33,108 nucleotides of DNA from a virus: IMG/VR virus record IMGVR_UViG_3300049491_000386, positions 1 through 33,108 of that record; one strand, 5' to 3'. Each line of letters starts with the position of its first letter. Within the stretch, counting starts at the first letter, position 1. The position numbers and the translations under genes were made by a program. This document shows positions 6,744 to 28,951 of the stretch, piece by piece. The notes below the pieces were generated by a model. That model was given only the letters and a program-made list of their open reading frames with translations, did no database searches and had not been told where the DNA came from.

Positions 6744-6751
6744 GCTAAATA
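6744..6751 (+). promoter_or_regulatory. Putative late promoter (GCTAAATA)
   Basis: GCTAAATA stands 25 bases before the second GIY-YIG gene. The expected start, about 6757, falls inside the hairpin that follows. Upstream lies a CCTTTTT stretch (6728-6734) without a strong stem, so it is not a convincing terminator. Confidence 0.6.
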
Positions 6752-6752
6752 G

Positions 6753-6771
6753 GCTCGTCTAACCAACGAGC
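6753..6771 (+). promoter_or_regulatory. Hairpin over the ribosome binding site of the second GIY-YIG gene
   Basis: GCTCGT (6753-6758) pairs perfectly with ACGAGC (6766-6771) across a 7-base loop; the ATG follows five bases later, so the 3' arm contains the only available Shine-Dalgarno-like bases (GAG). A late transcript starting near 6757 would lose four of the six 5' arm bases. Confidence 0.6.
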
Positions 6772-6776
6772 ATTTC

Positions 6777-7436
6777 ATGACCGTCATTCGCGCGCAACGA
6801 CGCAAGCACCACATCATCTACAAAACGACCTGTCTAGTGACAGGTCGGTACTACATCGGCATGCACAGTACCGATGACCTTGACGACGGGTACCTTGGGA
6901 GCGGGGTTAGGCTGAATCGATCTGTAAAGAAGCACGGAAAAGATCAACACGGCAGAGAAGTTCTTGATCAACTTTCTACTAGACAAGCAGCATCTGAAAG
7001 AGAGAAGGAGCTTATCACCGAAGAGATGCGAGCTGATCCTGAATGTTTGAACTGCGGGGTTGGCGGTTTGGGTGCGGCACCAAGAACGCTGGACTCAGCA
7101 GAAACAAAACTAAAGCGTAGTCAAGCATCTAAGAAGGTGCACGCATCACTAACTGATGAGCAACGAGCTAGCCGTGCTAAGGCCATCAGCGAAGCAAACA
7201 AGATTGCACTAAACAAGGCTGACACAAAAGCCGCCCAGTCTGCCGCGGCAAAGAAGCGTTGGGAAGACCCTAAATACAGGGGAAGACTTACAGGCCTCAA
7301 CAGACCGATGTCCGAAGAAGCCCGTCTCAAGATGTCAGCCGCAAAGACAGGAAAGAAGCTCGTGCGAACACCAGAACACAATGCCAAAATTGCCGCAGCA
7401 CATAAAGCGCGATGGGCAGCAAAGGAATCGCAATGA
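6777..7436 (+). CDS. Free-standing GIY-YIG homing endonuclease (second paralogue)
   Basis: The 219-residue protein has the same GIY-YIG domain as the gene at 620: IIYKTTCLVTGRYYIGMHS, then EREKELITEEMRADPECLNCG. Residues 110-215 carry several NUMOD3-like DNA-binding segments (DSAETKLKRSQASK, MSEEARLKMSAAKTGKK, TPEHNAKIAAAH), without the NUMOD1-like tail of its paralogue. The DNA from about 6950 on is richer in A/T than its surroundings, suggesting transfer. It has a late promoter and hairpin gate. Its TGA overlaps the ATG at 7433, so the following phage gene has become translationally coupled to a selfish gene. Confidence 0.9.
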   Translation: MTVIRAQRRKHHIIYKTTCLVTGRYYIGMHSTDDLDDGYLGSGVRLNRSVKKHGKDQHGREVLDQLSTRQAASEREKELITEEMRADPECLNCGVGGLGAAPRTLDSAETKLKRSQASKKVHASLTDEQRASRAKAISEANKIALNKADTKAAQSAAAKKRWEDPKYRGRLTGLNRPMSEEARLKMSAAKTGKKLVRTPEHNAKIAAAHKARWAAKESQ

Positions 7437-19441: not shown

Positions 19442-20844
19442 AGGTCGCGCACATCACCGTGCGTGACGAGGTGTGGATGTCGGTGTCTGGCATCTCAACC
19501 GCCGAGCACGAGTTCTTCTGGAACAAGTACGGCATCGAGGTCGAGGGCTCGTTCTTCATGCCAGCTCGCAAGCTCGGCCGCTGGGACGGCAAGCACCGGT
19601 TCTACGAGAAAACTGGCAAGGTGTTCCTGCGCTTCCTCGAAGAGATCGTGCCGTTCCTCGACAAGTGGGGCTACGAGATCGAGCTCCATGACGAGCGCCG
19701 TCCTGTGCCGCTGATCCAAGGTCGGCTGACGGCTGAGTGGTTCCACGGCCGCACTGAGGTCAAGATCGACATGCGACCGTACCAGGTTGAGGCCGTGAAC
19801 AAAGCGCTCGAGGCCGGTTCCGGCATGATCATCGCCGCAACTGGTGCTGGCAAGACGCTGATGGTCGCTGGCATGTGCGCGGTGATGGGCGAGGAAGGGC
19901 TCCGCACGATCACGATCGTGCCGTCATCCGACCTGGTCGAGCAGACCGCGAACACGTTCCGCCTGTGCAACCTCGATCCTGGCGTGTACAGCGGCGCGAC
20001 CAAGGACGTGCACCACACGCACGTGATCGCGACCTGGCAGGCCTTGCAGAACAATCCAGCGGTCGTCGAGGCGTTCCAGTGCGTGATCGTCGACGAGGCG
20101 CACGGCGCTTCAGCCAAGACGATCGGTGAGCTGATCACCGCGCACGGCAAGCACATTGGGTACCGCTTCGGCTTCACTGGCACGCTGCCAAAGCCAGCCG
20201 TCGACCAGTGCACGCTGCGCGGCTCAATTGGTGAGGTGCTGTACGAGATCAGTGCGGCTGACCTGATTAGGATGGGGTACCTGGCCGAGCTGGAGATCGA
20301 GCCAGTTGAGATCCAAGAGAAGGCCGAAGAAGAGTTCCCAGATTACGGCGCCGAGAAGGCGTACGTCGCTCGCCAGCCAGATCGCCTGGACTTCATCGCC
20401 GACCTGATCATCGACCGTGGCTCCAAGTTCGGGAACACGCTGGTGCTGGTGAACACGATCAAGCAAGGGCAGCAGCTCCAGAAACTGATCAAGGACTCCG
20501 TGTTCCTGCAAGGCGCCACCGAGAACGAGGTGCGAGCCGAGTGGTACGGCACGTTCGCCACGCGTGACGACCTGATCGTGATCGCTACGTCAGGCATCGC
20601 CTCAACCGGCATCTCGATCGACCGCGTGTTCAACCTGATGCTGATCGACGCTGGCAAGTCGTTCATTAAGTGCATCCAGTCAATTGGTCGTGGCCTGCGC
20701 AAGGCGCACGACAAGGACCGCGTTCACGTGTGCGACGTGTACAGCGGCCTGAAGTGGGGCAAGAAGCACGCCCGCGAACGCAAGCGTTTTTACACCGAGG
20801 CCGGATACCCCGTGAGGAAGGCTGTGAAAGTCAAGCTGACGTGA
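19438..20844 (+). CDS. uvsW: UvsW helicase
   Basis: This 468-residue superfamily 2 helicase starts at the ATG overlapping the previous stop (ATGA). An N-terminal domain of about 115 residues, with the ARKLGRWDGKHRFYE segment typical of T4 UvsW, precedes the helicase core: Q-like MRPYQVEAV, Walker A ATGAGKT, DEAH box VIVDEAHG, motif III GFTGTL, then TLVLVNTIKQG, IATSGIASTGISID and the motif VI QSIGRGLRK. UvsW unwinds branched intermediates and D-loops and helps the switch from origin to recombination-dependent replication. All motifs are intact. The last 14 bases overlap the antisense HNH gene. Confidence 0.93.
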   Translation: MKVAHITVRDEVWMSVSGISTAEHEFFWNKYGIEVEGSFFMPARKLGRWDGKHRFYEKTGKVFLRFLEEIVPFLDKWGYEIELHDERRPVPLIQGRLTAEWFHGRTEVKIDMRPYQVEAVNKALEAGSGMIIAATGAGKTLMVAGMCAVMGEEGLRTITIVPSSDLVEQTANTFRLCNLDPGVYSGATKDVHHTHVIATWQALQNNPAVVEAFQCVIVDEAHGASAKTIGELITAHGKHIGYRFGFTGTLPKPAVDQCTLRGSIGEVLYEISAADLIRMGYLAELEIEPVEIQEKAEEEFPDYGAEKAYVARQPDRLDFIADLIIDRGSKFGNTLVLVNTIKQGQQLQKLIKDSVFLQGATENEVRAEWYGTFATRDDLIVIATSGIASTGISIDRVFNLMLIDAGKSFIKCIQSIGRGLRKAHDKDRVHVCDVYSGLKWGKKHARERKRFYTEAGYPVRKAVKVKLT

Positions 20845-21493
20845 AACACCAGCCCTTCATTGGTCCCTTCTTGATGATCCTATCTTTCTTGCTGCTCAAC
20901 CAAGAGAGTTGGTAATCAAGATCGTGATCGCGGCAGAACTCACGAAGGTTGTTGATGCGCTCTGTCTTTCCAGAAGGGTGCAGCACGTCAAACGGTTTAG
21001 CCTTCGAGCGAGCGTGGTTGGCGCTGATCTTGGCTGCGTGTTCTTTGGTGAGAGGGCGACCAGTGAGAGCCGCTCGCATTTTCTCGACCGCTTCTTTCGG
21101 TTGTGGCCTGCCTTTGAGCGCTTTGCTGATGTTGTCTCGCCATTGTTGATCACGCTCTTGCATCGCCATCTTTCGGGCGGCATGATACCAATGGGAGTTT
21201 GTCTTGTGTCGAGCGTGAGACGATGAATGACAGAGTGCCATGTACGAGAACGCATGGCGCATTCGAATGAGGGCGGTGCCAGTCGTCATTCGTGTCAGAA
21301 GTAGGTGGCAAAGGAAGTGCTCACGAGCTGTGAGCAAGACCTTGTTCTCGTCAGTGTCTGGGCCGTCAAGGGCTGTTGGAATGATATGATGTTCTTCAAA
21401 GTAACCTTCGAGAACCCGCTTGTCAAGTCCGCGAACCTGAGCGTTCAGTACAATGGCGAGATAGATCGAGGTATAGCGGTTGTTCTGGAACAT
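20831..21493 (-). CDS. HNH homing endonuclease, antisense
   Basis: This is the only minus-strand gene in the window. The 220-residue product has an HNH nuclease centred on residues 30-65: FEEHHIIPTALDGPDTDENKVLLTAREHFLCHLLL, with the H-H pair, central N and final H. NUMOD3-like DNA-binding segments follow (RDNISKALKGRPQ, KEAVEKMRAALTGRPLTKEHAAK), and a C-terminal LREFCRDHDLDYQLS part resembles a NUMOD1-type module. It has its own reverse-oriented late promoter at 21518-21525. Its stop lies inside the uvsW coding end, so the two genes converge and overlap by 14 bases. Typical free-standing phage homing endonuclease. Confidence 0.9.
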   Translation of the reverse strand: MFQNNRYTSIYLAIVLNAQVRGLDKRVLEGYFEEHHIIPTALDGPDTDENKVLLTAREHFLCHLLLTRMTTGTALIRMRHAFSYMALCHSSSHARHKTNSHWYHAARKMAMQERDQQWRDNISKALKGRPQPKEAVEKMRAALTGRPLTKEHAAKISANHARSKAKPFDVLHPSGKTERINNLREFCRDHDLDYQLSWLSSKKDRIIKKGPMKGWCFTSA

Positions 21494-21517
21494 GGAATGG
21501 CCTTGGCTTCATTATAG

Positions 21518-21525
21518 TATTTAGC
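21518..21525 (-). promoter_or_regulatory. Putative late promoter on the minus strand (GCTAAATA)
   Basis: The minus strand reads GCTAAATA, 24 bases ahead of the HNH start codon at 21493, the same spacing as on the + strand. That the one reversed gene has a reversed copy is strong evidence that the octamer is functional and not a by-product of codon use. Confidence 0.65.
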
Positions 21526-21535
21526 GGAGACGGAA

Positions 21536-21835
21536 ATGACATTCACTTTCAATCAGGAAGTTCGCCTGAAGCACATTCCAAACGTGGCTTTCCAAAAGAC
21601 GTCACTCGGACATGAGGTCTGGTTGGAGGACGGGTTCAACATTCCTGTTGGTGGTGACTTTAGGTTGCTTGACAGCATGGATTTGGTTGGGCCTGGAGTA
21701 GACTTCAAGGCAACAGTTCAACGACTTGCAGTGGATGGTCGTGTTCTTGTTCACTTCGGAGTGACGAATACGCAAACTCTTTTCCTGGTAGATGCCTTTG
21801 CATTGGTTCATCCCAGCGATCTGGAAGCAGCATGA
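21536..21835 (+). CDS. Unknown protein (99 aa)
   Basis: The product is strand-rich: MTFTFNQEVRLKHIPNVAFQ, HEVWLEDGFNIPVGGDFRL, KATVQRLAVDGRVLVHFGV. It looks like a small beta-barrel. Ribosome binding site GGAG at 21526-21529 overlaps the reversed late promoter. Codon use is a little more A/T-rich than that of later genes. Coupled by ATGA to the gene at 21832. No family recognised. Confidence 0.7.
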   Translation: MTFTFNQEVRLKHIPNVAFQKTSLGHEVWLEDGFNIPVGGDFRLLDSMDLVGPGVDFKATVQRLAVDGRVLVHFGVTNTQTLFLVDAFALVHPSDLEAA

Positions 21836-22227
21836 AAGACATCGCGTACATCTCCGCGCCGATCTTGAAGGCTGACGTGCCGAACAGCAACGGTCGCATC
21901 TACCCTCTCGCCGCCCTCGAGAACTGCATCGCCGAAGAGGCGAAGCGCAAGCCACTCCTCGGCGTCATCGGTATGGACGAGGGCCTCTCGATCAGCCTCG
22001 ATAAGGTGTCTCACATCGCTGAGAATCTGCGCATCGAGGGTGACACCCTTGTCGCCGACATTCGTGTCGTCAATACGCCGGCCGGAAACCAGCTCATCGA
22101 GTTGTACAAGTCCGGTCTCATCACCTTCCGTTCGTCGGGCTTCGGCAAGATCGGTGCCGATGGCAAGACCATCACCGACTTCGAACCAATCTCCATCAAC
22201 GCAGTTTACGACGGCGCCGAACTATGA
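21832..22227 (+). CDS. gp21-like (prohead protease fold) protein, probably not a protease
   Basis: The 131-residue product aligns by eye with the core of T4-type prohead proteases (S77 family): NSNGRIYPLAALENCI matches the NRN-x-R-[LI]-YP strand, DKVSHIAENLRIEGDTLVADIRV the following strands, NTPAGNQLIELYKSG the helix, then FRSSGFG and ITDFEPISINAVYDGAEL. The protease His, normally in a GEL-[DN]-H-P motif, is replaced by GVIGMDEG; the SS-x-G region is RSSGFG. The N- and C-terminal extensions of gp21 are missing. I infer a degenerate paralogue or fold relative without peptidase activity, perhaps scaffold- or head-related. A true gp21 should be elsewhere in the genome. Confidence 0.55.
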   Translation: MKDIAYISAPILKADVPNSNGRIYPLAALENCIAEEAKRKPLLGVIGMDEGLSISLDKVSHIAENLRIEGDTLVADIRVVNTPAGNQLIELYKSGLITFRSSGFGKIGADGKTITDFEPISINAVYDGAEL

Positions 22228-22733
22228 TCATCCTGAACGAAATCAATCGCCCGTACATCGTCGACAGCCTCACCGCGCCGATCGTGCTTCGCCACCACTG
22301 GATCTTCAACGCCCAGCAGCTGGACTTCATGCTGAACGAGATCACGTACCTCGAGGAAACGGTCGGCCCGACGGTCACCCTCCAGATCGCGGACTCCGAA
22401 GTCAAGGTTCCGGGTGCGTGGTCAGTGCTGATCGTCGACATGGAGACGTACACGATCGACGCGATCCCAGCGACGGCTTGCGCCGCGTTCGAGCACCACG
22501 CGTTCGTGTTCTCGCCTGACGACGGCAAGCTCATCACCGCCCCGATCCGCGTGATCGCCTGGGAACCCAAAGGCTCGTGCATCTACCCAGCCATCGACAA
22601 GGCCCAGGCCCTGGTTCACAGCATCTCACCTGGCGTTTCACACGGTAAAATCGTGCCGCGTGGTGTCGTCGTTGGGCCAAACGATTTGTACAGGTACATC
22701 TCTGGGAAAACAGTCGGTGACATCCTCGGGTAA
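22224..22733 (+). CDS. Unknown protein (169 aa) whose 3' end is a homing-endonuclease insertion site
   Basis: The product begins MIILNEINRPYIVDSLTAP and is mainly beta, with EVKVPGAWSVLIVDMETYTID, CAAFEHHAFVFSPDDGKLITAPIRVI and KIVPRGVVVGPNDLYRYISGKTVGDILG. The dense conservation-like C-terminus suggests a structural or nucleotide-binding phage protein, but I cannot name it. ATGA couples it to the gp21-like gene. Its last nine codons (GKTVGDILG, 22704-22730) reappear, with different codons, as the last nine codons of the GIY-YIG gene that follows. The gene seems intact to its TAA. Confidence 0.7.
   Translation: MIILNEINRPYIVDSLTAPIVLRHHWIFNAQQLDFMLNEITYLEETVGPTVTLQIADSEVKVPGAWSVLIVDMETYTIDAIPATACAAFEHHAFVFSPDDGKLITAPIRVIAWEPKGSCIYPAIDKAQALVHSISPGVSHGKIVPRGVVVGPNDLYRYISGKTVGDILG
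22704..22730 (+). repeat. Duplicated C-terminal coding block, copy 1 (GKTVGDILG)
   Basis: Twenty-seven bases encode GKTVGDILG just before the TAA of the host gene. Compared with copy 2 at 23290-23316, six of nine codons differ, all at the third position and all synonymous. The preceding Ile codon is also shared. Confidence 0.85.
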
Positions 22734-23319
22734 TCAGGGCATCTACGCCATCAGTGGCCCTGGCGGGCAGAGGTACATTGGTAGCTCGACACGCCTGAAG
22801 CGCCGGCTGCGCGACCACAAACGCGCGCTGAGCAGGGGCATTCACCACTGCTCGCATCTTCAACGAGCTTGGGATAGACACGGCGAGCCGCAGTTCACCT
22901 TCGAGATCGTGGAGCTGGTGGAAGAGCGTAGCTCGCTACTCGATCGCGAGCAGCACTGGCTCGACCAGACACCCGATAGGTACAACTCGTCGCCGACTGC
23001 TGCGAGCCCGCTCGGTTTCAAGCAGACAGAGGAAGCGAAGCAGAAAATCAGGATTGCCCTGACGGGCAAGTCAAAGAGCGTTGAACATGTGGCGGCGCTT
23101 TCTGCGAGCTTGACTATTCGGATGCGGGGTGAGACAGAGATGAAGGCGAAGTTCGCACGCAATCGTCTCGGAACGAAGCAGACTCCAGAGCAGATCGCGA
23201 AGCGGGTCGAAGCCACCCGACGTTCCAGATCGCGACACACCCCGGAACAGCGCCTGGAGATCGCCGCCAAGCGATCGGCCACCATCGGTGGCAAGACGGT
23301 CGGAGACATTCTCGGCTGA
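22717..23319 (+). CDS. GIY-YIG homing endonuclease ending in a copy of its host gene's C-terminus
   Basis: The 200-residue protein starts at GTG 22717, inside the previous gene but in the +1 frame; an upstream GTG at 22660 is possible but less likely. The GIY-YIG domain is clear: QGIYAISGPGGQRYIGSS, RLKRRLRDHKRAL, FTFEIVELVEERSSLLDREQHWLD with the catalytic Glu. NUMOD3-like repeats follow (KQTEEAKQKIRIALTGKS, KQTPEQIAKRVEATRR). It is only distantly related to the two GIY-YIG genes at 620 and 6777. The final residues, IGGKTVGDILG, repeat the end of the neighbouring gene. It has no late promoter or hairpin of its own. Confidence 0.85.
   Translation: MTSSGNQGIYAISGPGGQRYIGSSTRLKRRLRDHKRALSRGIHHCSHLQRAWDRHGEPQFTFEIVELVEERSSLLDREQHWLDQTPDRYNSSPTAASPLGFKQTEEAKQKIRIALTGKSKSVEHVAALSASLTIRMRGETEMKAKFARNRLGTKQTPEQIAKRVEATRRSRSRHTPEQRLEIAAKRSATIGGKTVGDILG
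23290..23316 (+). repeat. Duplicated C-terminal coding block, copy 2 (GKTVGDILG)
   Basis: These 27 bases end the homing endonuclease gene and encode the same nine residues as copy 1, with only silent differences. Copy 2 is followed by TGA, copy 1 by TAA. Confidence 0.85.
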
Positions 23320-23327
23320 CCGAGCGT

Positions 23328-23335
23328 CGTAAATA
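23328..23335 (+). promoter_or_regulatory. Putative late promoter (CGTAAATA) for the endolysin
   Basis: CGTAAATA differs by one base from the consensus seen elsewhere (CTAAATA) and lies 24 bases before the endolysin ATG. The expected start is about 23341, at the end of the 5' arm of the next hairpin. Confidence 0.55.
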
Positions 23336-23354
23336 GGCTCCACACACAGGAGCC
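23336..23354 (+). promoter_or_regulatory. Hairpin hiding the endolysin ribosome binding site
   Basis: GGCTCC (23336-23341) pairs perfectly with GGAGCC (23349-23354) across a 7-base loop. The 3' arm contains the whole Shine-Dalgarno GGAG (23349-23352) for the ATG at 23359. A late transcript beginning near 23341 would lack the 5' arm. T4 lysozyme gene e is controlled in the same manner. Confidence 0.7.
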
Positions 23355-23358
23355 GAAC

Positions 23359-23949
23359 ATGCCTTACTCGCCAGCCTTTGACGCCGCCCTCAACCACGCC
23401 ATGCTTTACGAAGTCGGTGGCTTCTGGAACTTGAACACACCAGGAGTTCGTGAGGGCCTGATCGAGACCAAGGAACAACGCAAGGCTTGCGGGTACGTGA
23501 ACGACCCGCTGGACATGGGCGGTGAGACCAAGTACGGTGTCGCCAAGAACGCGAACCCTGACCTGGACATCCACACCCTGGACTGGGAAGCGGCAGCTCG
23601 CGTGTATTTCAAGCGGTACTGGATTGCTGGCGACTGCCAAGACATGCCAGGCCGCGTGGCGGTGCTGCACTTCGACGGCTGCGTCAACCACGGCATCGGT
23701 CGTGCGGCGAAGTTCATGCAACGTGCCGCTGGTGTTACCGATGACGGTGACATCGGGCCAGCAACCCTGAAGGCCATCAAGGCCAAGGACGAATTCGTGC
23801 TCTGCAAGGCAGTGTGCGACCAGCGTGAGGCGTTCTATCGCCAGATCGTAGCGAACAAGCCTGAACAGGCTCGGTTCCTGAATGGATGGCTCCGCCGCAT
23901 CAACGAGATGCGTGCGTTCGTCATCGACCCAACCAAGACCTTCGCCTAA
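23359..23949 (+). CDS. Endolysin, glycoside hydrolase family 108 muramidase
   Basis: The 196-residue protein matches GH108 (N-acetylmuramidase) endolysins: catalytic Glu18 in MLYEVGGF, then YVNDPLDMGGETKYGVAKN, a conserved helix AARVYFKRYWI, and a C-terminal PG_binding_3-like domain with HFDGCVNHGIGRAAKFMQRAAG and DGDIGPATLKAI. It cuts the glycan backbone of peptidoglycan at the end of infection. There is no signal peptide or SAR helix, so it needs a holin; a candidate lies at 28505. Its translation is gated by a late promoter and hairpin. Confidence 0.9.
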   Translation: MPYSPAFDAALNHAMLYEVGGFWNLNTPGVREGLIETKEQRKACGYVNDPLDMGGETKYGVAKNANPDLDIHTLDWEAAARVYFKRYWIAGDCQDMPGRVAVLHFDGCVNHGIGRAAKFMQRAAGVTDDGDIGPATLKAIKAKDEFVLCKAVCDQREAFYRQIVANKPEQARFLNGWLRRINEMRAFVIDPTKTFA

Positions 23950-23992
23950 CCGCGACCCCGAACACGACTCAACTGGTCGCACGCGCGTCTGG

Positions 23993-24003
23993 TTGTTACA
24001 ATC
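23993..24003 (+). promoter_or_regulatory. Putative early/middle promoter box TTGTTACAATC for nrdA
   Basis: TACAAT (23997-24002) within GTTACAATC is 33 bases before the NrdA ATG, like the copy before the gene at 17275. An inverted repeat GCGACC/GGTCGC (23952-23957 and 23975-23980) covers the -35 position and could be a regulator site. No consensus -35 is seen. Confidence 0.45.
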
Positions 24004-24035
24004 GTCTCTCCTTCAAGAAGAAAGTATCCATTCCC

Positions 24036-26357
24036 ATGCACGTCATCAAGCGAGATGGCTCCAAAGTTCCATTCGATCTGGCCAAGTGGCAGGCCCAGAT
24101 CGCCAAGGTGTGTGAAGGCGTTGCGGACGTCTCACCGTCCATGATCGAGATCGCCGCTAAGGCGCAGTTCCGCGATGAGATGACGACCTCAGAGCTTGAT
24201 GAGATCGCCCTGAAGTCGATGATCAACCTGATCGACGAGGAAGAGCACCCAGACATCGGGAACGTGAACTACCAGTACGTGGCTGGCAAGCAACGGCTGA
24301 CCATGCTCCGCAAGGACGTGTTCGGTTCGTACCAACCGCCACGCCTGTACGACGTCGTGAAGTCGAACGTGGAGCACAAGCTGTACACGCCCGACCTGCT
24401 GACGTGGTACAGCGAGGAAGAGTGGGACGAGCTGCAGAAGCACATCGACCACGACAAGGACGAGCTCCTCCCGTACGCCGCCATCGACCAGCTGGTCGAG
24501 AAGTACCTGATCCGAAATCGCAGCACTGGCCTGATGGTCGAGACGCCGCAGATCCGGTACATGGTCGCCGCGGCCACGATGTTCCATGCTGAGAAGAAAG
24601 ACCGCATCAAGTGGGTCAAGGACTTCTACCACGCGGCCTCTGACGGCATGTTCACGATGGCCACGCCCGTGTTGGCTGGCCTCGGCACGAAGACCAAGCA
24701 GTTCAGCTCGTGCGTCCTCATCAAGACCGACGACTCGCTCAAGAGCATCTTCGCCACTGGCCAGATCATGGCCGATTACGCGTCCAAGCGTGCTGGCATC
24801 GGCCTGGAGATCGGTCGCATGCGACCGCTCGGCGCCAGCATTCGCGATGGCGAAGTGATGCACACCGGCATCGTTCCGTTCCTGAAGAAGTGGTTCGCCG
24901 ATCTGCGTTCGTGCTCGCAAGGCGGCATCCGCAATGCCAGCGCGACGGTGAACATGCCGATCTGGCACTACCAGTTCGACGATTACATCGTCCTCAAGAA
25001 CAACAAGGGCGTCGAAGAGAACCGTGTCCGTCAGATGGACTACTGCGTCGTGCTCTCGAAGTTCTTCTGGCGTCGGTTCAAGAACAAGGGCACCATCACG
25101 TTTTTCGATCCGAACCAGGTCCCCGATCTGTACGAGTCGTTCTACCGGAACGACGCCAAGTTCGAAGAGCTGTACGTCAAGTACGAGAAGCGCAAGGACC
25201 TGCGCACCAAGACGCTGCCAGCTGAAGAGGTGTTCAAGCAGCTCCTTACCGAGCGCGTCGAGACGGGTCGCATCTACCTCCTGAACATCGACAACGTCTC
25301 GAATCAGGGGCCGTTCGATACGGAAATTCACCCGATTTACCAGACGAATCTCTGCACGGAGATCATGCAACACACGCGGCCGTTCCAGTCCGTTGAGGAC
25401 CCAGACGGCCGTATTGCGCTCTGCACGCTCGGTTCCATGAACTGGGGCGCAGTGCGCCACCCAGAAGAGATGCGTCGCCCACTGCGGCTGCTCCAACGCG
25501 GCCTGCACAACTTGCTGCAGTACCAGGACTTCCTGTCGGTTCACAGCGAGCTGCACAACAAGGAGTTCGAACCGCTCGGCATCGGCATCACGAACCTCGC
25601 GTACTGGCACGCCAAGCGCAAGCTGAAGTACGGCGAGACCGAAGCGCTGGCTGAAGTGAAGCGCTGGATCGAGCACCAAGCGTTTTACCTGACCGAGATG
25701 AGCGTCGAGCTCGCCAAGGAAAAGGGCGCCTGCACCGAGAGCCCGAACACGTGGTACGGCAAGGGCGTCTTCCCATGGGAGCGCCGTGCCAAAGGCTCGA
25801 ACGAGCTGACCGACTTCACGCCAAGCGAGGACCTCGATTGGGAAGGTCTGCGCGAGAAGATGCTGAAGTACGGCGTGCGCAATGCGACCACCATGGCGAT
25901 CGCGCCAGTCGAGTCGTCGTCTGTCGTGCTGAACAGCACGAATGGCGTGAACCTCGTCAAGCAGTTGATCATCATCAAGGGCTCCAAGGCCGGTGACTTC
26001 GTGCAGGTCGCGCCAGAGTACAAGAAGCTGAAGGCGCACTACCAGTTGCTGTGGGAACAGCCAGACTGCCTGCCGTACCTGATGACGGTTGCGGTGCTGC
26101 AAGTGTACGTGGACCAAGGCATCTCGGCCGACACGTACTACTCGCCACGGTACTTCCCAGACGGCAAGGTTGACATCAACCTCGTCGCGAAGAACCAGAT
26201 GCTGTTCCACCACTGGGGTGGCAAGTCGAATTACTATCACCTGGTTGAGAAGCAAGCGGCGATGGAGAGCGTCAAGGAAGACGCCCCAGTGTTCCAAGAG
26301 CTGCCGACGCTGGCCGAACCAACCGAAGACGAGTACTGTGAGAGCTGCGTGCTATGA
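24036..26357 (+). CDS. nrdA: Ribonucleotide reductase class Ia, large subunit NrdA
   Basis: The 773-residue enzyme reduces ribonucleoside diphosphates for DNA synthesis. The N-terminus holds an ATP-cone allosteric domain (MHVIKRDGSKVPFDLAKWQ). The active-site cysteine pair is SSCVLI and ALCTLGSMN; the radical-site motif is NLCTEI (N, C, E). TYYSPRYF and ADTYY lie near the radical-transfer tyrosines, and the C-terminal redox pair is CESC. Start ATG 24036, behind its promoter; an open extension back to 23886 overlaps the endolysin gene and is rejected. NrdB is coupled by ATGA. No intron, intein or homing gene interrupts it, although nrd genes are frequent targets. Confidence 0.96.
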   Translation: MHVIKRDGSKVPFDLAKWQAQIAKVCEGVADVSPSMIEIAAKAQFRDEMTTSELDEIALKSMINLIDEEEHPDIGNVNYQYVAGKQRLTMLRKDVFGSYQPPRLYDVVKSNVEHKLYTPDLLTWYSEEEWDELQKHIDHDKDELLPYAAIDQLVEKYLIRNRSTGLMVETPQIRYMVAAATMFHAEKKDRIKWVKDFYHAASDGMFTMATPVLAGLGTKTKQFSSCVLIKTDDSLKSIFATGQIMADYASKRAGIGLEIGRMRPLGASIRDGEVMHTGIVPFLKKWFADLRSCSQGGIRNASATVNMPIWHYQFDDYIVLKNNKGVEENRVRQMDYCVVLSKFFWRRFKNKGTITFFDPNQVPDLYESFYRNDAKFEELYVKYEKRKDLRTKTLPAEEVFKQLLTERVETGRIYLLNIDNVSNQGPFDTEIHPIYQTNLCTEIMQHTRPFQSVEDPDGRIALCTLGSMNWGAVRHPEEMRRPLRLLQRGLHNLLQYQDFLSVHSELHNKEFEPLGIGITNLAYWHAKRKLKYGETEALAEVKRWIEHQAFYLTEMSVELAKEKGACTESPNTWYGKGVFPWERRAKGSNELTDFTPSEDLDWEGLREKMLKYGVRNATTMAIAPVESSSVVLNSTNGVNLVKQLIIIKGSKAGDFVQVAPEYKKLKAHYQLLWEQPDCLPYLMTVAVLQVYVDQGISADTYYSPRYFPDGKVDINLVAKNQMLFHHWGGKSNYYHLVEKQAAMESVKEDAPVFQELPTLAEPTEDEYCESCVL

Positions 26358-27481
26358 GTGACTTCACCAAACAGCCGAACTACGGCAAGCGTCGGATGTT
26401 CCTTGACCCTGCTGGTGCGGTGAGCATCCAGCGGTACGACGACTTCGCGTACCCAAAGCAGGACAAGTTCGTCAAGACGCAGCGTGGCGCGATCTGGGTT
26501 CCAGACGAGGTCACGATGACCAAGGACAAGATCGACTTCACCAAGGCGGACGACGCCACGAAGTTCATCTTCACGCAGAACCTGCTTCGCCAGACCGCCC
26601 TCGATTCCGTTCAGGGTCGGATGCCAGTTGCGGTGTTCACGCCAGTCGCCTCCATTCCGGAGACCGAGGCATGGGCGCTGTGGTGGTCGGCGTTCGAGCA
26701 GATTCACAGCGAGTCGTACAGCCACATCGTGCGGAACATCTACAACATGCCGCAAGAGCAGTTCAACGCGATCCACGACACGTCTGAGATCATGGGCATG
26801 TTGTCGAACGTCGGCAAGTACTACAACGATCTGCACGTGCTGAACTGCAAGAAAGCGCTGTACGAGCAAGCAGTTCTTGACAACCAGCCTGAGGTCGTTC
26901 TCCAATGGCTGCGCGTCGCGGAGTACGAGCACATCAAGGCCGTTTGGTTGGCCCTGAACGCCTCCTACGCCCTCGAAGCGATCCGCTTCATGGTCAGCTT
27001 CAGCACCTCGCTCGGCATGGTCGAGAACAAGATCTTCATGGGCAGCGGGAACGTGATCGCCCTGATTCTGGCGGACGAGCTGCTGCACACCGACGCGACC
27101 GCATGGCAGATCAACACGAACGCGAAGGACGATCCTCGCTTCCGCCAAGCCAAGATCGACTGCGCCGAGGAAGTGTACGCCATGTACATGAGTGTCATTG
27201 CCGAAGAGAAGGCGTGGGCTGACCACATCTTCCAGAAGGGCACCGTCCTCGGCCTGAACGCCGCAATCATGAAGTCGTTCGTCGACTTCACGGCCCAACA
27301 CCGCCTCAAGGACATCGGCATCAAGTACGACGCTGGTGTCAAGAGCACCCCGCTTCCGTGGTTCAACAAGCACCTGAACACGAACAAGAAGCAGACCGCG
27401 CTCCAAGAGAACGAGAGCGTGTCGTACGTCGTCGGAGCCATGACGTCCGAGATCTACTACGACCAGCTCCCAGACCTATAA
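26354..27481 (+). CDS. nrdB: Ribonucleotide reductase class Ia, small subunit NrdB
   Basis: The 375-residue protein carries the di-iron ligands and radical tyrosine of class Ia R2: ALDSVQGR (Asp), FEQIHSESYSH (Glu, His and radical Tyr in the same spacing as E. coli E115/H118/Y122), AEYEH, GMVENKIFMG (Glu) and ADELLH (Glu, His). The C-terminal end (YYDQLPDL) is the acidic tail that docks on NrdA. Start overlaps the NrdA stop (ATGA). Together with the glutaredoxin at 28128 it forms a complete reduction set. Its stop codon is fused to the next gene's ribosome binding site (TAAGGA). Confidence 0.96.
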   Translation: MSDFTKQPNYGKRRMFLDPAGAVSIQRYDDFAYPKQDKFVKTQRGAIWVPDEVTMTKDKIDFTKADDATKFIFTQNLLRQTALDSVQGRMPVAVFTPVASIPETEAWALWWSAFEQIHSESYSHIVRNIYNMPQEQFNAIHDTSEIMGMLSNVGKYYNDLHVLNCKKALYEQAVLDNQPEVVLQWLRVAEYEHIKAVWLALNASYALEAIRFMVSFSTSLGMVENKIFMGSGNVIALILADELLHTDATAWQINTNAKDDPRFRQAKIDCAEEVYAMYMSVIAEEKAWADHIFQKGTVLGLNAAIMKSFVDFTAQHRLKDIGIKYDAGVKSTPLPWFNKHLNTNKKQTALQENESVSYVVGAMTSEIYYDQLPDL

Positions 27482-27489
27482 GGACATCC

Positions 27490-28128
27490 ATGGCTAACCT
27501 CCAAACTTTTGGCGTCCCTGGTGTCGGCTCCGGCATTCTGCACCCGAAGATGTCTAACCGGTTCGGTGTGTACTTCACGTGCGCCTCAACCCTGCCTGCG
27601 GAGCTGGTCACCAAGCTGCTCAGCGCCTTGAGCATGCAGACGGTAGCCGTTGAGCTGCCAATCCAGACGTTCCGCCCGCCGTTCAGCGGCCCAAGCCGCA
27701 AGTCGTTCAAGAGCATCGGCACGAAGAACGGCCTGAAGATTAGGTTCCAAGACGATGTCACGAACCACGTTGCCTCGGCCCTGGACTTCCTGGCGAACCA
27801 CGCCACTGACCTCACCGTCCTGGTGGCCAAGCTTGATGGTGATGAGGGTGTCACCGAGGCGTACCTGTTCGGCCGCGTTCGGATGGACAGCGTCGAGCAC
27901 TCGGCCCTCGACTACGCCTGCACCGGCTTCACCCAAGGCTCGATCCACGGGCATCTCGTCTCGGCCGATGGCACAGAGACGGCGGTGTTTGACGCGACAA
28001 CGAACACTCCAAAACACCAGAACAGCCTGCAAGAGCGGGCTGTCACCTTCATTCCCGACTATGCCCAGCACGCGTTCTTCTCTGGCTCGTCGGCCGTCTC
28101 AATCTCCGACCTACTCAAGGAAATCTGA
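27490..28128 (+). CDS. Tail-tube-like structural protein
   Basis: The 212-residue product starts at ATG 27490 behind TAAGGA. The pattern KMSNRFGVYFTC, LSMQTVAVELPIQTF, KIRFQDDVTNHVASALDFLANH and GRVRMDSVEHSALDYACTGF fits the tube-fold family: a strand ending in RF-x-D-D followed by a helix is typical of gp19-type proteins, and TFTDD appears in the protein at 1314. It lies unexpectedly between NrdB and glutaredoxin, so it may be a second tube or tube-like adaptor or have another role. The fold is inferred from pattern only. Confidence 0.45.
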   Translation: MANLQTFGVPGVGSGILHPKMSNRFGVYFTCASTLPAELVTKLLSALSMQTVAVELPIQTFRPPFSGPSRKSFKSIGTKNGLKIRFQDDVTNHVASALDFLANHATDLTVLVAKLDGDEGVTEAYLFGRVRMDSVEHSALDYACTGFTQGSIHGHLVSADGTETAVFDATTNTPKHQNSLQERAVTFIPDYAQHAFFSGSSAVSISDLLKEI

Positions 28129-28397
28129 TGCTCACCATTTACTCAAAACCAGCCTGCCCATTCTGTGACCATGCCAAGGCGCTGGCCACCTCAGTCGGCC
28201 TGCAGTACCGTGAGGTCATCCTCGACGTCGAGCAGCCGAAGCTGGCAGGGCAGACATACATCACCAAGGCCGAGCTGCTGGAACTGATCCCGACGGCGCG
28301 GACGATGCCACAGATCATGAACGGCACCGACGAGTACATCGGCGGGTACACGGAACTGAAGAAGTGGGTAGCTGGGAAGGACGCACTAGCGGCGTGA
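28128..28397 (+). CDS. Glutaredoxin
   Basis: The 89-residue protein has the thioredoxin-fold signature: MLTIYSKPACPFC with active-site C10-P-F-C13, the TMPQI cis-proline strand and GGYTELKKW for glutathione binding. It returns electrons to the phage ribonucleotide reductase encoded just upstream. The start overlaps the previous stop (TGATG). A middle insertion (LDVEQPKLAGQTYITKAEL) is a little longer than in the shortest phage glutaredoxins. It is followed by a terminator. Confidence 0.92.
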   Translation: MLTIYSKPACPFCDHAKALATSVGLQYREVILDVEQPKLAGQTYITKAELLELIPTARTMPQIMNGTDEYIGGYTELKKWVAGKDALAA

Positions 28398-28428
28398 TAC
28401 TACCGGCATTAGGTGGCGAATAGCGTTT

Positions 28429-28452
28429 CGAAGGACTCTGAGGAGTCCTTCG
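28429..28452 (+). terminator. Intrinsic terminator
   Basis: CGAAGGACTC (28429-28438) and GAGTCCTTCG (28443-28452) form a perfect 10-base stem with a TGAG loop, followed by GTCGTTTCC. It ends the nrdA-nrdB-glutaredoxin unit before the late promoter of the fibre region. The 107-base gap (28398-28504) holds only this and the promoter. Confidence 0.8.
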
Positions 28453-28472
28453 GTCGTTTCCGGGGTCAACGA

Positions 28473-28480
28473 CCTAAATA
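28473..28480 (+). promoter_or_regulatory. Putative late promoter (CCTAAATA) for the lysis/fibre unit
   Basis: CCTAAATA lies 24 bases before the TTG start at 28505. It would drive the holin-like gene and the fibre genes that follow with short gaps. Confidence 0.6.
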
Positions 28481-28504
28481 GTTCGAACACTCTGGAGCCC
28501 TATC

Positions 28505-28951
28505 TTGGCCGACGCTGCCACCACTACCACAACGACCGCCACCGTCTTTGACACGGCAAAACCCATCGTTTTGCCGTCTTTGCAATCAGTGACCTCAATG
28601 GTCGTTGAGGTTGGCGGGCTGCACTTTAATTTGATGGCGATTGTCCTGGCATTTGTCGGCGCGCTGTTAATGATCTTGTTCTGGCGCATCCAATCCTCAG
28701 AGAAGCTGGACTTTGCTGACATGATCACCAAAGACGGTCGGGCCGTTAGCCTTACCAAGGTGCTGCAGTTGATCGGGGGCATCACCTCTACCTGGATCAT
28801 GATCAAGCTGACCTTGACGGGCGGGCTGACTGAAGCATTGTTCGGCTTGTACTTGACGTACGTCGGCGCGATCGAAGGGTACTCCAAGTACGTCTCTGCC
28901 AAATATGGCTACACTGAGAAGTCCGTCAAGGACGCTGATCCAACTAAGTAA
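28505..28951 (+). CDS. Holin-like membrane protein, TTG start
   Basis: This 148-residue protein is read from a TTG with GGAG seven bases upstream; no ATG in the same frame is as well placed. After a Thr-rich N-terminus and an amphipathic stretch there is a strong transmembrane helix (FNLMAIVLAFVGALLMILFW), a short soluble link (SSEKLDFADMITKDGRAVSLTK), and two more hydrophobic helices (VLQLIGGITSTWIMIKLTL, GGLTEALFGLYLTYVGAIEGY). The LDFADMITKDGR / GGITSTWI arrangement resembles holin-type membrane proteins of other large phages. A holin role is an inference from topology, late expression and the need of the endolysin at 23359. Confidence 0.55.
   Translation: MADAATTTTTTATVFDTAKPIVLPSLQSVTSMVVEVGGLHFNLMAIVLAFVGALLMILFWRIQSSEKLDFADMITKDGRAVSLTKVLQLIGGITSTWIMIKLTLTGGLTEALFGLYLTYVGAIEGYSKYVSAKYGYTEKSVKDADPTK

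Follow-up and report, generated by a model that had tools for sequence, protein, structure and literature searches.

The window analyzed here, the whole 33,108-base stretch of DNA, is an IMG/VR virus contig with T4-type genes encoding a terminase, a gp32-like SSB, UvsX, UvsW, NrdA, and NrdB. Its plus strand carries, at 23359 to 23949, a gene for an endolysin of 196 amino acids that combines a Glyco_hydro_108 (GH108) domain (PF05838; E = 4.5e-16; 59.6 bits, with a gathering cutoff of 21.2) with a PG_binding_3 domain (PF09374; E = 3.7e-17; 62.7 bits, with a cutoff of 24.6) and that matches the endolysin profile phrog_315 (E = 2.4e-44). These Pfam domains are not those of GH24, the family of T4 lysozyme, in agreement with the preliminary description of this DNA, which had placed the hairpin discussed below in front of an endolysin family unrelated to the T4 enzyme. 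Among the isolates listed, none had an endolysin match at 60% identity or more; GH108 neighborhoods exist in the large isolates Milchi and HTVC008M.

The leader of the endolysin gene is compact. From 23328 to 23361 it consists, in order, of a T4-type late promoter octamer, CGTAAATA (23328 to 23335, corresponding to positions -13 to -6), the 5' arm GGCTCC (23336 to 23341), the loop ACACACA (23342 to 23348), the 3' arm GGAGCC (23349 to 23354), the spacer GAAC, and the ATG start codon at 23359. The 5' arm is complementary to the 3' arm and covaries with it in relatives. The Shine-Dalgarno (SD) sequence AGGAG (23348 to 23352) lies within or beside the 3' arm, 6 nt before the ATG. Each coordinate reported earlier for an octamer followed directly by a perfect 6-bp hairpin (23328 to 23354) was verified on the sequence, as was the placement of the only good SD of the endolysin in the 3' arm. 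An RNA containing both arms is predicted to form the 6-bp stem, whereas an RNA beginning at 23341, the late transcription start predicted from T4 spacing, is predicted to be almost unstructured. An Rfam scan of the window returned zero matches.

The octamer is identical to that of T4, TATAAATA, at six of eight bases; the T4 late consensus spans -13 to -6 (PMC1524935). The form of the motif in the window's own virus is (C/G)TAAATA, close to the CTAAATA reported as the late form in phage Aeh1 (PMC1524935). The window has a GC content of 58.6%, and TAAATA occurs in it 9 times compared with 0.97 expected, an approximately nine-fold excess that was equaled in 0 of 100 shuffles of the window. Eight of the nine copies are on the plus strand and the majority stand immediately 5' of gene starts, and this excess, concentrated as it is, points to TAAATA as the late promoter core of the virus. 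The motif lies 22 to 52 bases 5' of the endolysin start in nearly all close relatives, and homologs of a gp55-like late sigma factor were found in the contigs of 10 of 13 relatives. The octamer at 23328, the enrichment of TAAATA, and the presence of gp55 in relatives together mark the gp55-type late promoter that belongs to gating of the T4 gene e type.

On the same strand upstream of the endolysin is up169 (22224 to 22733; phrog_11279, function unknown), whose homologs hold the same-strand upstream position in nearly all co-directional relatives and which likely belongs to the read-through unit. With 28% identity, it matches proteins of the jumbo phages XacN1, CM1, and RAS14; the annotations of XacN1 and RAS14 place no endolysin next to the up169 homolog. 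A GIY-YIG endonuclease gene (22660 to 23319, plus strand; PF01541, E = 4.3e-11), whose true start is probably near 22717, separates up169 from the endolysin as an insertion that is missing from many relatives (for example, L002 and L003). The endonuclease ends in GKTVGDILG-stop, the same last nine residues as up169, and in relatives without the endonuclease gene the GKTVGDILG-stop of up169 lies directly 5' of the endolysin promoter. Judging from these sequences, the end of up169 was apparently copied when the endonuclease gene inserted; in the relative L039, GRTVGDVLG-stop both closes up169 and recurs 5' of the endolysin. Downstream of the endolysin are nrdA (24037 to 26357) and nrdB (26354 to 27481), both on the plus strand and identified by Pfam, and nrdA has the same position in many co-directional relatives. 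In T4, nrdA and nrdB are early/middle-type genes. The nearest annotated phages by DNA have only nrdA in common with the window. Between uvsW and the operon leading to the endolysin lies a minus-strand homing endonuclease gene (phrog_655; 20831 to 21493) with its own minus-strand TAAATA at 21518 to 21523.

The source of transcription entering from upstream was considered from the distribution of promoters. A scan of window positions 20700 to 28600 for sigma-70-like promoters found none, fewer than the shuffled expectation. Within the 1.4 to 5 kb of upstream sequence examined, a further TAAATA on the same strand is absent from most co-directional relatives, so read-through RNA is probably not late and, from this distribution of motifs, is probably early or middle. 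We infer that an early read-through RNA exists.

Accessibility was scored as the opening of the region from the SD through the AUG; an earlier score based on the SD alone had missed stems that hold the SD in the loop, such as that of a homing endonuclease gene in L045. The predicted cost of opening the endolysin start region is 11.1 kcal/mol in the read-through RNA compared with 1.9 kcal/mol in the RNA from 23341, which lacks the 5' arm, and the same calculation for T4 gene e gives 15.6 (read-through) and 3.7 (late) kcal/mol. This difference in predicted openness supports the silencing of upstream-derived mRNA by folding, as earlier proposed. None of 200 shuffles of the spacer from octamer to SD concealed the SD as well as the native sequence did, and a second accessibility measure gave a P value of 0.005 for the window leader against local shuffles; by both measures, then, the concealment of the SD and/or AUG in the read-through RNA is significant at P ≤ 0.005. 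A threshold of 3.3 kcal/mol, picked post hoc with the data known, gives way here to the shuffle-based counts.

A first scan of IMG/VR gave 68 relatives, and later scans gave a nonredundant set of 50 with TAAATA near the endolysin start. For the main test, the orientation of the upstream gene was set by homolog positions; automated assignment from open reading frame length mislabeled or left open some loci (for example, L021). A significant start-site hairpin is present in 24 of the 34 co-directional relatives compared with 0 of the 16 divergent relatives (Fisher P = 1.2e-6), with combined P values of 6e-22 and 0.91, respectively. The contrast persists at a GC fraction below 0.42 (8/10 versus 0/16; P = 3e-5), and the late-form RNA is predicted to be equally open in the co-directional and divergent groups (medians of 2.2 and 1.8 kcal/mol; P = 0.31). 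The upstream gene in the co-directional group is nearly always an up169 homolog, and that in the divergent group often has its own late octamer pointing the opposite way. When 40 nt of upstream sequence was added, 4 of the 16 divergent loci also reached P ≤ 0.05, an effect probably explained by complementarity between SDs, and between promoters, that face each other. Stems are weak or nonsignificant in the co-directional relatives L047, L318, and L319.

The endolysin of L014 lacks its own octamer and hairpin and follows a gene whose late octamer is 1.1 kb upstream. Conservation of the stem in relatives, which the preliminary description had anticipated, therefore held for the co-directional relatives and failed where the upstream gene is divergent and in L014; since the stemless relatives have either a divergent upstream gene or, in L014, a late-promoted preceding gene, the absences support the gating idea. 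A protein tree of the endolysins contains at least six switches of orientation. The independent orientation contrasts on this tree, six in all with four well supported, agree or are neutral, with zero opposed; the four well-supported contrasts are too few for significance alone but, as a pattern among sequences, are suggestive of orientation dependence. In L021, a minus-strand open reading frame approximately 90 to 630 bases upstream of the endolysin lies between up169 and the endolysin, and the locus retains a strong 10-bp hairpin despite this insert, so it seems to be the operon, rather than the immediate neighbor, that counts.

Compensatory base changes, which had been suggested as a check, are present: co-directional loci differ in stem sequence and still pair. 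The SD core remains paired with a CUCC-like sequence across relatives. Farther out in the stem, individual variable positions are occupied by each of the four Watson-Crick pair types in one relative or another. Native arms pair at -8.7 kcal/mol compared with -3.6 kcal/mol when arms are swapped between loci, a difference reached in 0 of 20,000 permutations. In four relatives (L028, L044, L048, and L247), the 5' arm is upstream of or overlaps the octamer, placing the octamer in the loop, and the predicted late RNA still lacks the 5' arm; L026 can apparently form either version of the hairpin. Relocation of the arm with the logic kept would be difficult to account for if the hairpin did not serve to tell read-through RNA from late RNA.

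The arrangement suggests a switch in which the endolysin gene would be read as part of a co-directional unit running from up169 through the endolysin to nrdA and nrdB. A polymerase entering from upstream would produce mRNA with both arms, in which the SD would be hidden and the ribosome could not initiate on the endolysin. Late in infection, a polymerase carrying a gp55-type sigma factor would start at the octamer and make mRNA from approximately 23341 without the 5' arm, leaving the SD free for endolysin synthesis. Taken as a whole, this hairpin gating is highly probable in view of the sequence itself, the predicted accessibility of both RNA forms, the compensatory conservation, and the dependence on upstream orientation.

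In T4, the gene e mechanism is established experimentally, and read-through e mRNA is reportedly translated approximately 100-fold less (PMC3014915). Gene e resembles the window in having a late octamer (two, in T4), a 5' arm between octamer and SD, an SD in the 3' arm, late RNA without the 5' arm (predicted in the window), and a co-directional upstream gene; it differs in encoding a GH24 rather than a GH108 enzyme, in its two octamers, and in its other neighboring genes. Similar hairpin gating is described for T4 soc, gene 49, and I-TevI (PMC3014915), and homing endonuclease genes are the second known class with hairpins that hide the ribosome binding site (RBS) (PMC2988022). Such hairpins are found, as in the window, at T4 soc, gene 49, I-TevI/II/III, and segB and at Aeh1 mobE, and in the cases described for soc, gene 49, and the homing endonuclease genes the late promoter is positioned to drop the 5' arm; unlike the window endolysin, these are not lysis genes (PMC2988022, PMC3014915). 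A review predicts the e leader structure solely in close T4 relatives, with e present but lacking the structure in Aeh1, 44RR, 25, and 31 (PMC3014915). Some of the present relatives are on contigs of 240 to 385 kb that carry gp55 homologs. By analogy, the mechanism is very likely the same as that of T4 gene e, acting on an unrelated enzyme in a distant uncultivated group; gating is proven in T4 only, and the window case is known from sequence and predicted folding. The start site, the approximately 100-fold translational effect, and the timing would be as in T4, from which they are carried over. The device is known in kind; the novelty lies in how broadly it occurs and in the way it depends on the orientation of the neighboring gene.

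Several other readings of the inverted repeat bear on this conclusion. Perfect 6-bp stems with loops of 3 to 8 nt are common (102 in the window), and the nonrandom part is the placement. On a chance reading, any 5' leader with CUCC beside an SD would pair; the shuffle tests, the arm-swap test, and the orientation contrast refute chance pairing, which retains a practically negligible probability. An intrinsic terminator of the upstream gene would suit a GC-rich stem 16 nt past that gene's stop codon but is extremely unlikely, as the stem is followed by ATG rather than a U run and was not listed by a terminator scan. A DNA- or RNA-protein site, such as a late promoter operator or a RegA-like repressor site with incidental hiding of the SD, is very unlikely. 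The repeat does adjoin the promoter, and late promoters under autorepression (I-TevI) as well as repressors that bind RNA are known from T4 (PMC2988022, PMC3014915); however, arms, loops, and stem lengths diverge broadly while complementarity is maintained, the presence of the stem follows upstream orientation, and the 5' arm can shift to the far side of the octamer. The terminator and DNA operator readings were set aside.

What the gating achieves is a separate matter. The hairpin may, as hypothesized in the preliminary description, prevent early lysis. It could instead silence read-through so that wasteful synthesis is avoided or ribosomes are kept from interfering with the neighboring nrd genes, a purpose that we consider somewhat unlikely. 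The endolysin does lie between up169 and nrdA, a cytosolic endolysin ordinarily has to await a holin, and some tail-tube and homing endonuclease genes of the window bear such hairpins too. Against this, at late-promoter genes of the fetched loci, hairpins are far commoner at endolysins that are co-directional or were assigned no orientation (23/27) than at other such genes (8/38; P = 3e-7). No membrane segment or anchor was evident in the endolysin by inspection and a holin is normally needed, so the evidence supports the silencing of read-through mRNA rather than its consequence, and the timing of lysis would be expected to depend on a holin. A membrane protein with a late promoter is encoded 3' of the nrd/glutaredoxin genes (28475 to 28951; phrog_1322, lacking a Pfam match) and is a candidate holin, judged by position only; a similar protein is divergently encoded beside the endolysin in L054.

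For gated hairpin formation more generally, we lean toward the view that a lysis gene under a T4-type late sigma factor gains and keeps an RBS-hiding hairpin only if non-late transcription can enter, the lock appearing, disappearing, and being reassembled from new arms, some of them upstream of the promoter, as orientation changes across the GH108 clade. The T4 gene e lock is very likely no peculiarity of T4 but a solution that recurs among large uncultivated viruses, where it is found on an unrelated enzyme, and the co-directional and divergent relatives provide a natural experiment on the purpose of the hairpin. A late octamer, a stem over the SD, and a same-strand neighbor together offer a simple predictor of lysis genes and other tightly gated late genes that can be used in genomes lacking transcript data.

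Among the eight non-endolysin genes with hairpins are the two free-standing homing endonuclease genes of the window that have a plus-strand octamer, the homing endonuclease gene of L045, and the tail-tube gene of the window. The two window endonuclease genes (620 to 1285 and 6777 to 7436) are related (phrog_314), and in each TAAATA is followed by a start-site stem (CTCAGGT/ACCTGAG at 580 to 622 and GCTCGT/ACGAGC at 6746 to 6779), an arrangement resembling that of T4 I-TevI or segB. In the stretch 1283 to 1316, at the tail-tube-like gene (1314 to 2606), TAAATA precedes a 9-bp stem with imperfect pairing (GTGTCATGA/TCATGAGAC; P = 0.005); a start-site stem is unusual on a major structural gene, and this one comes after a homing endonuclease gene.
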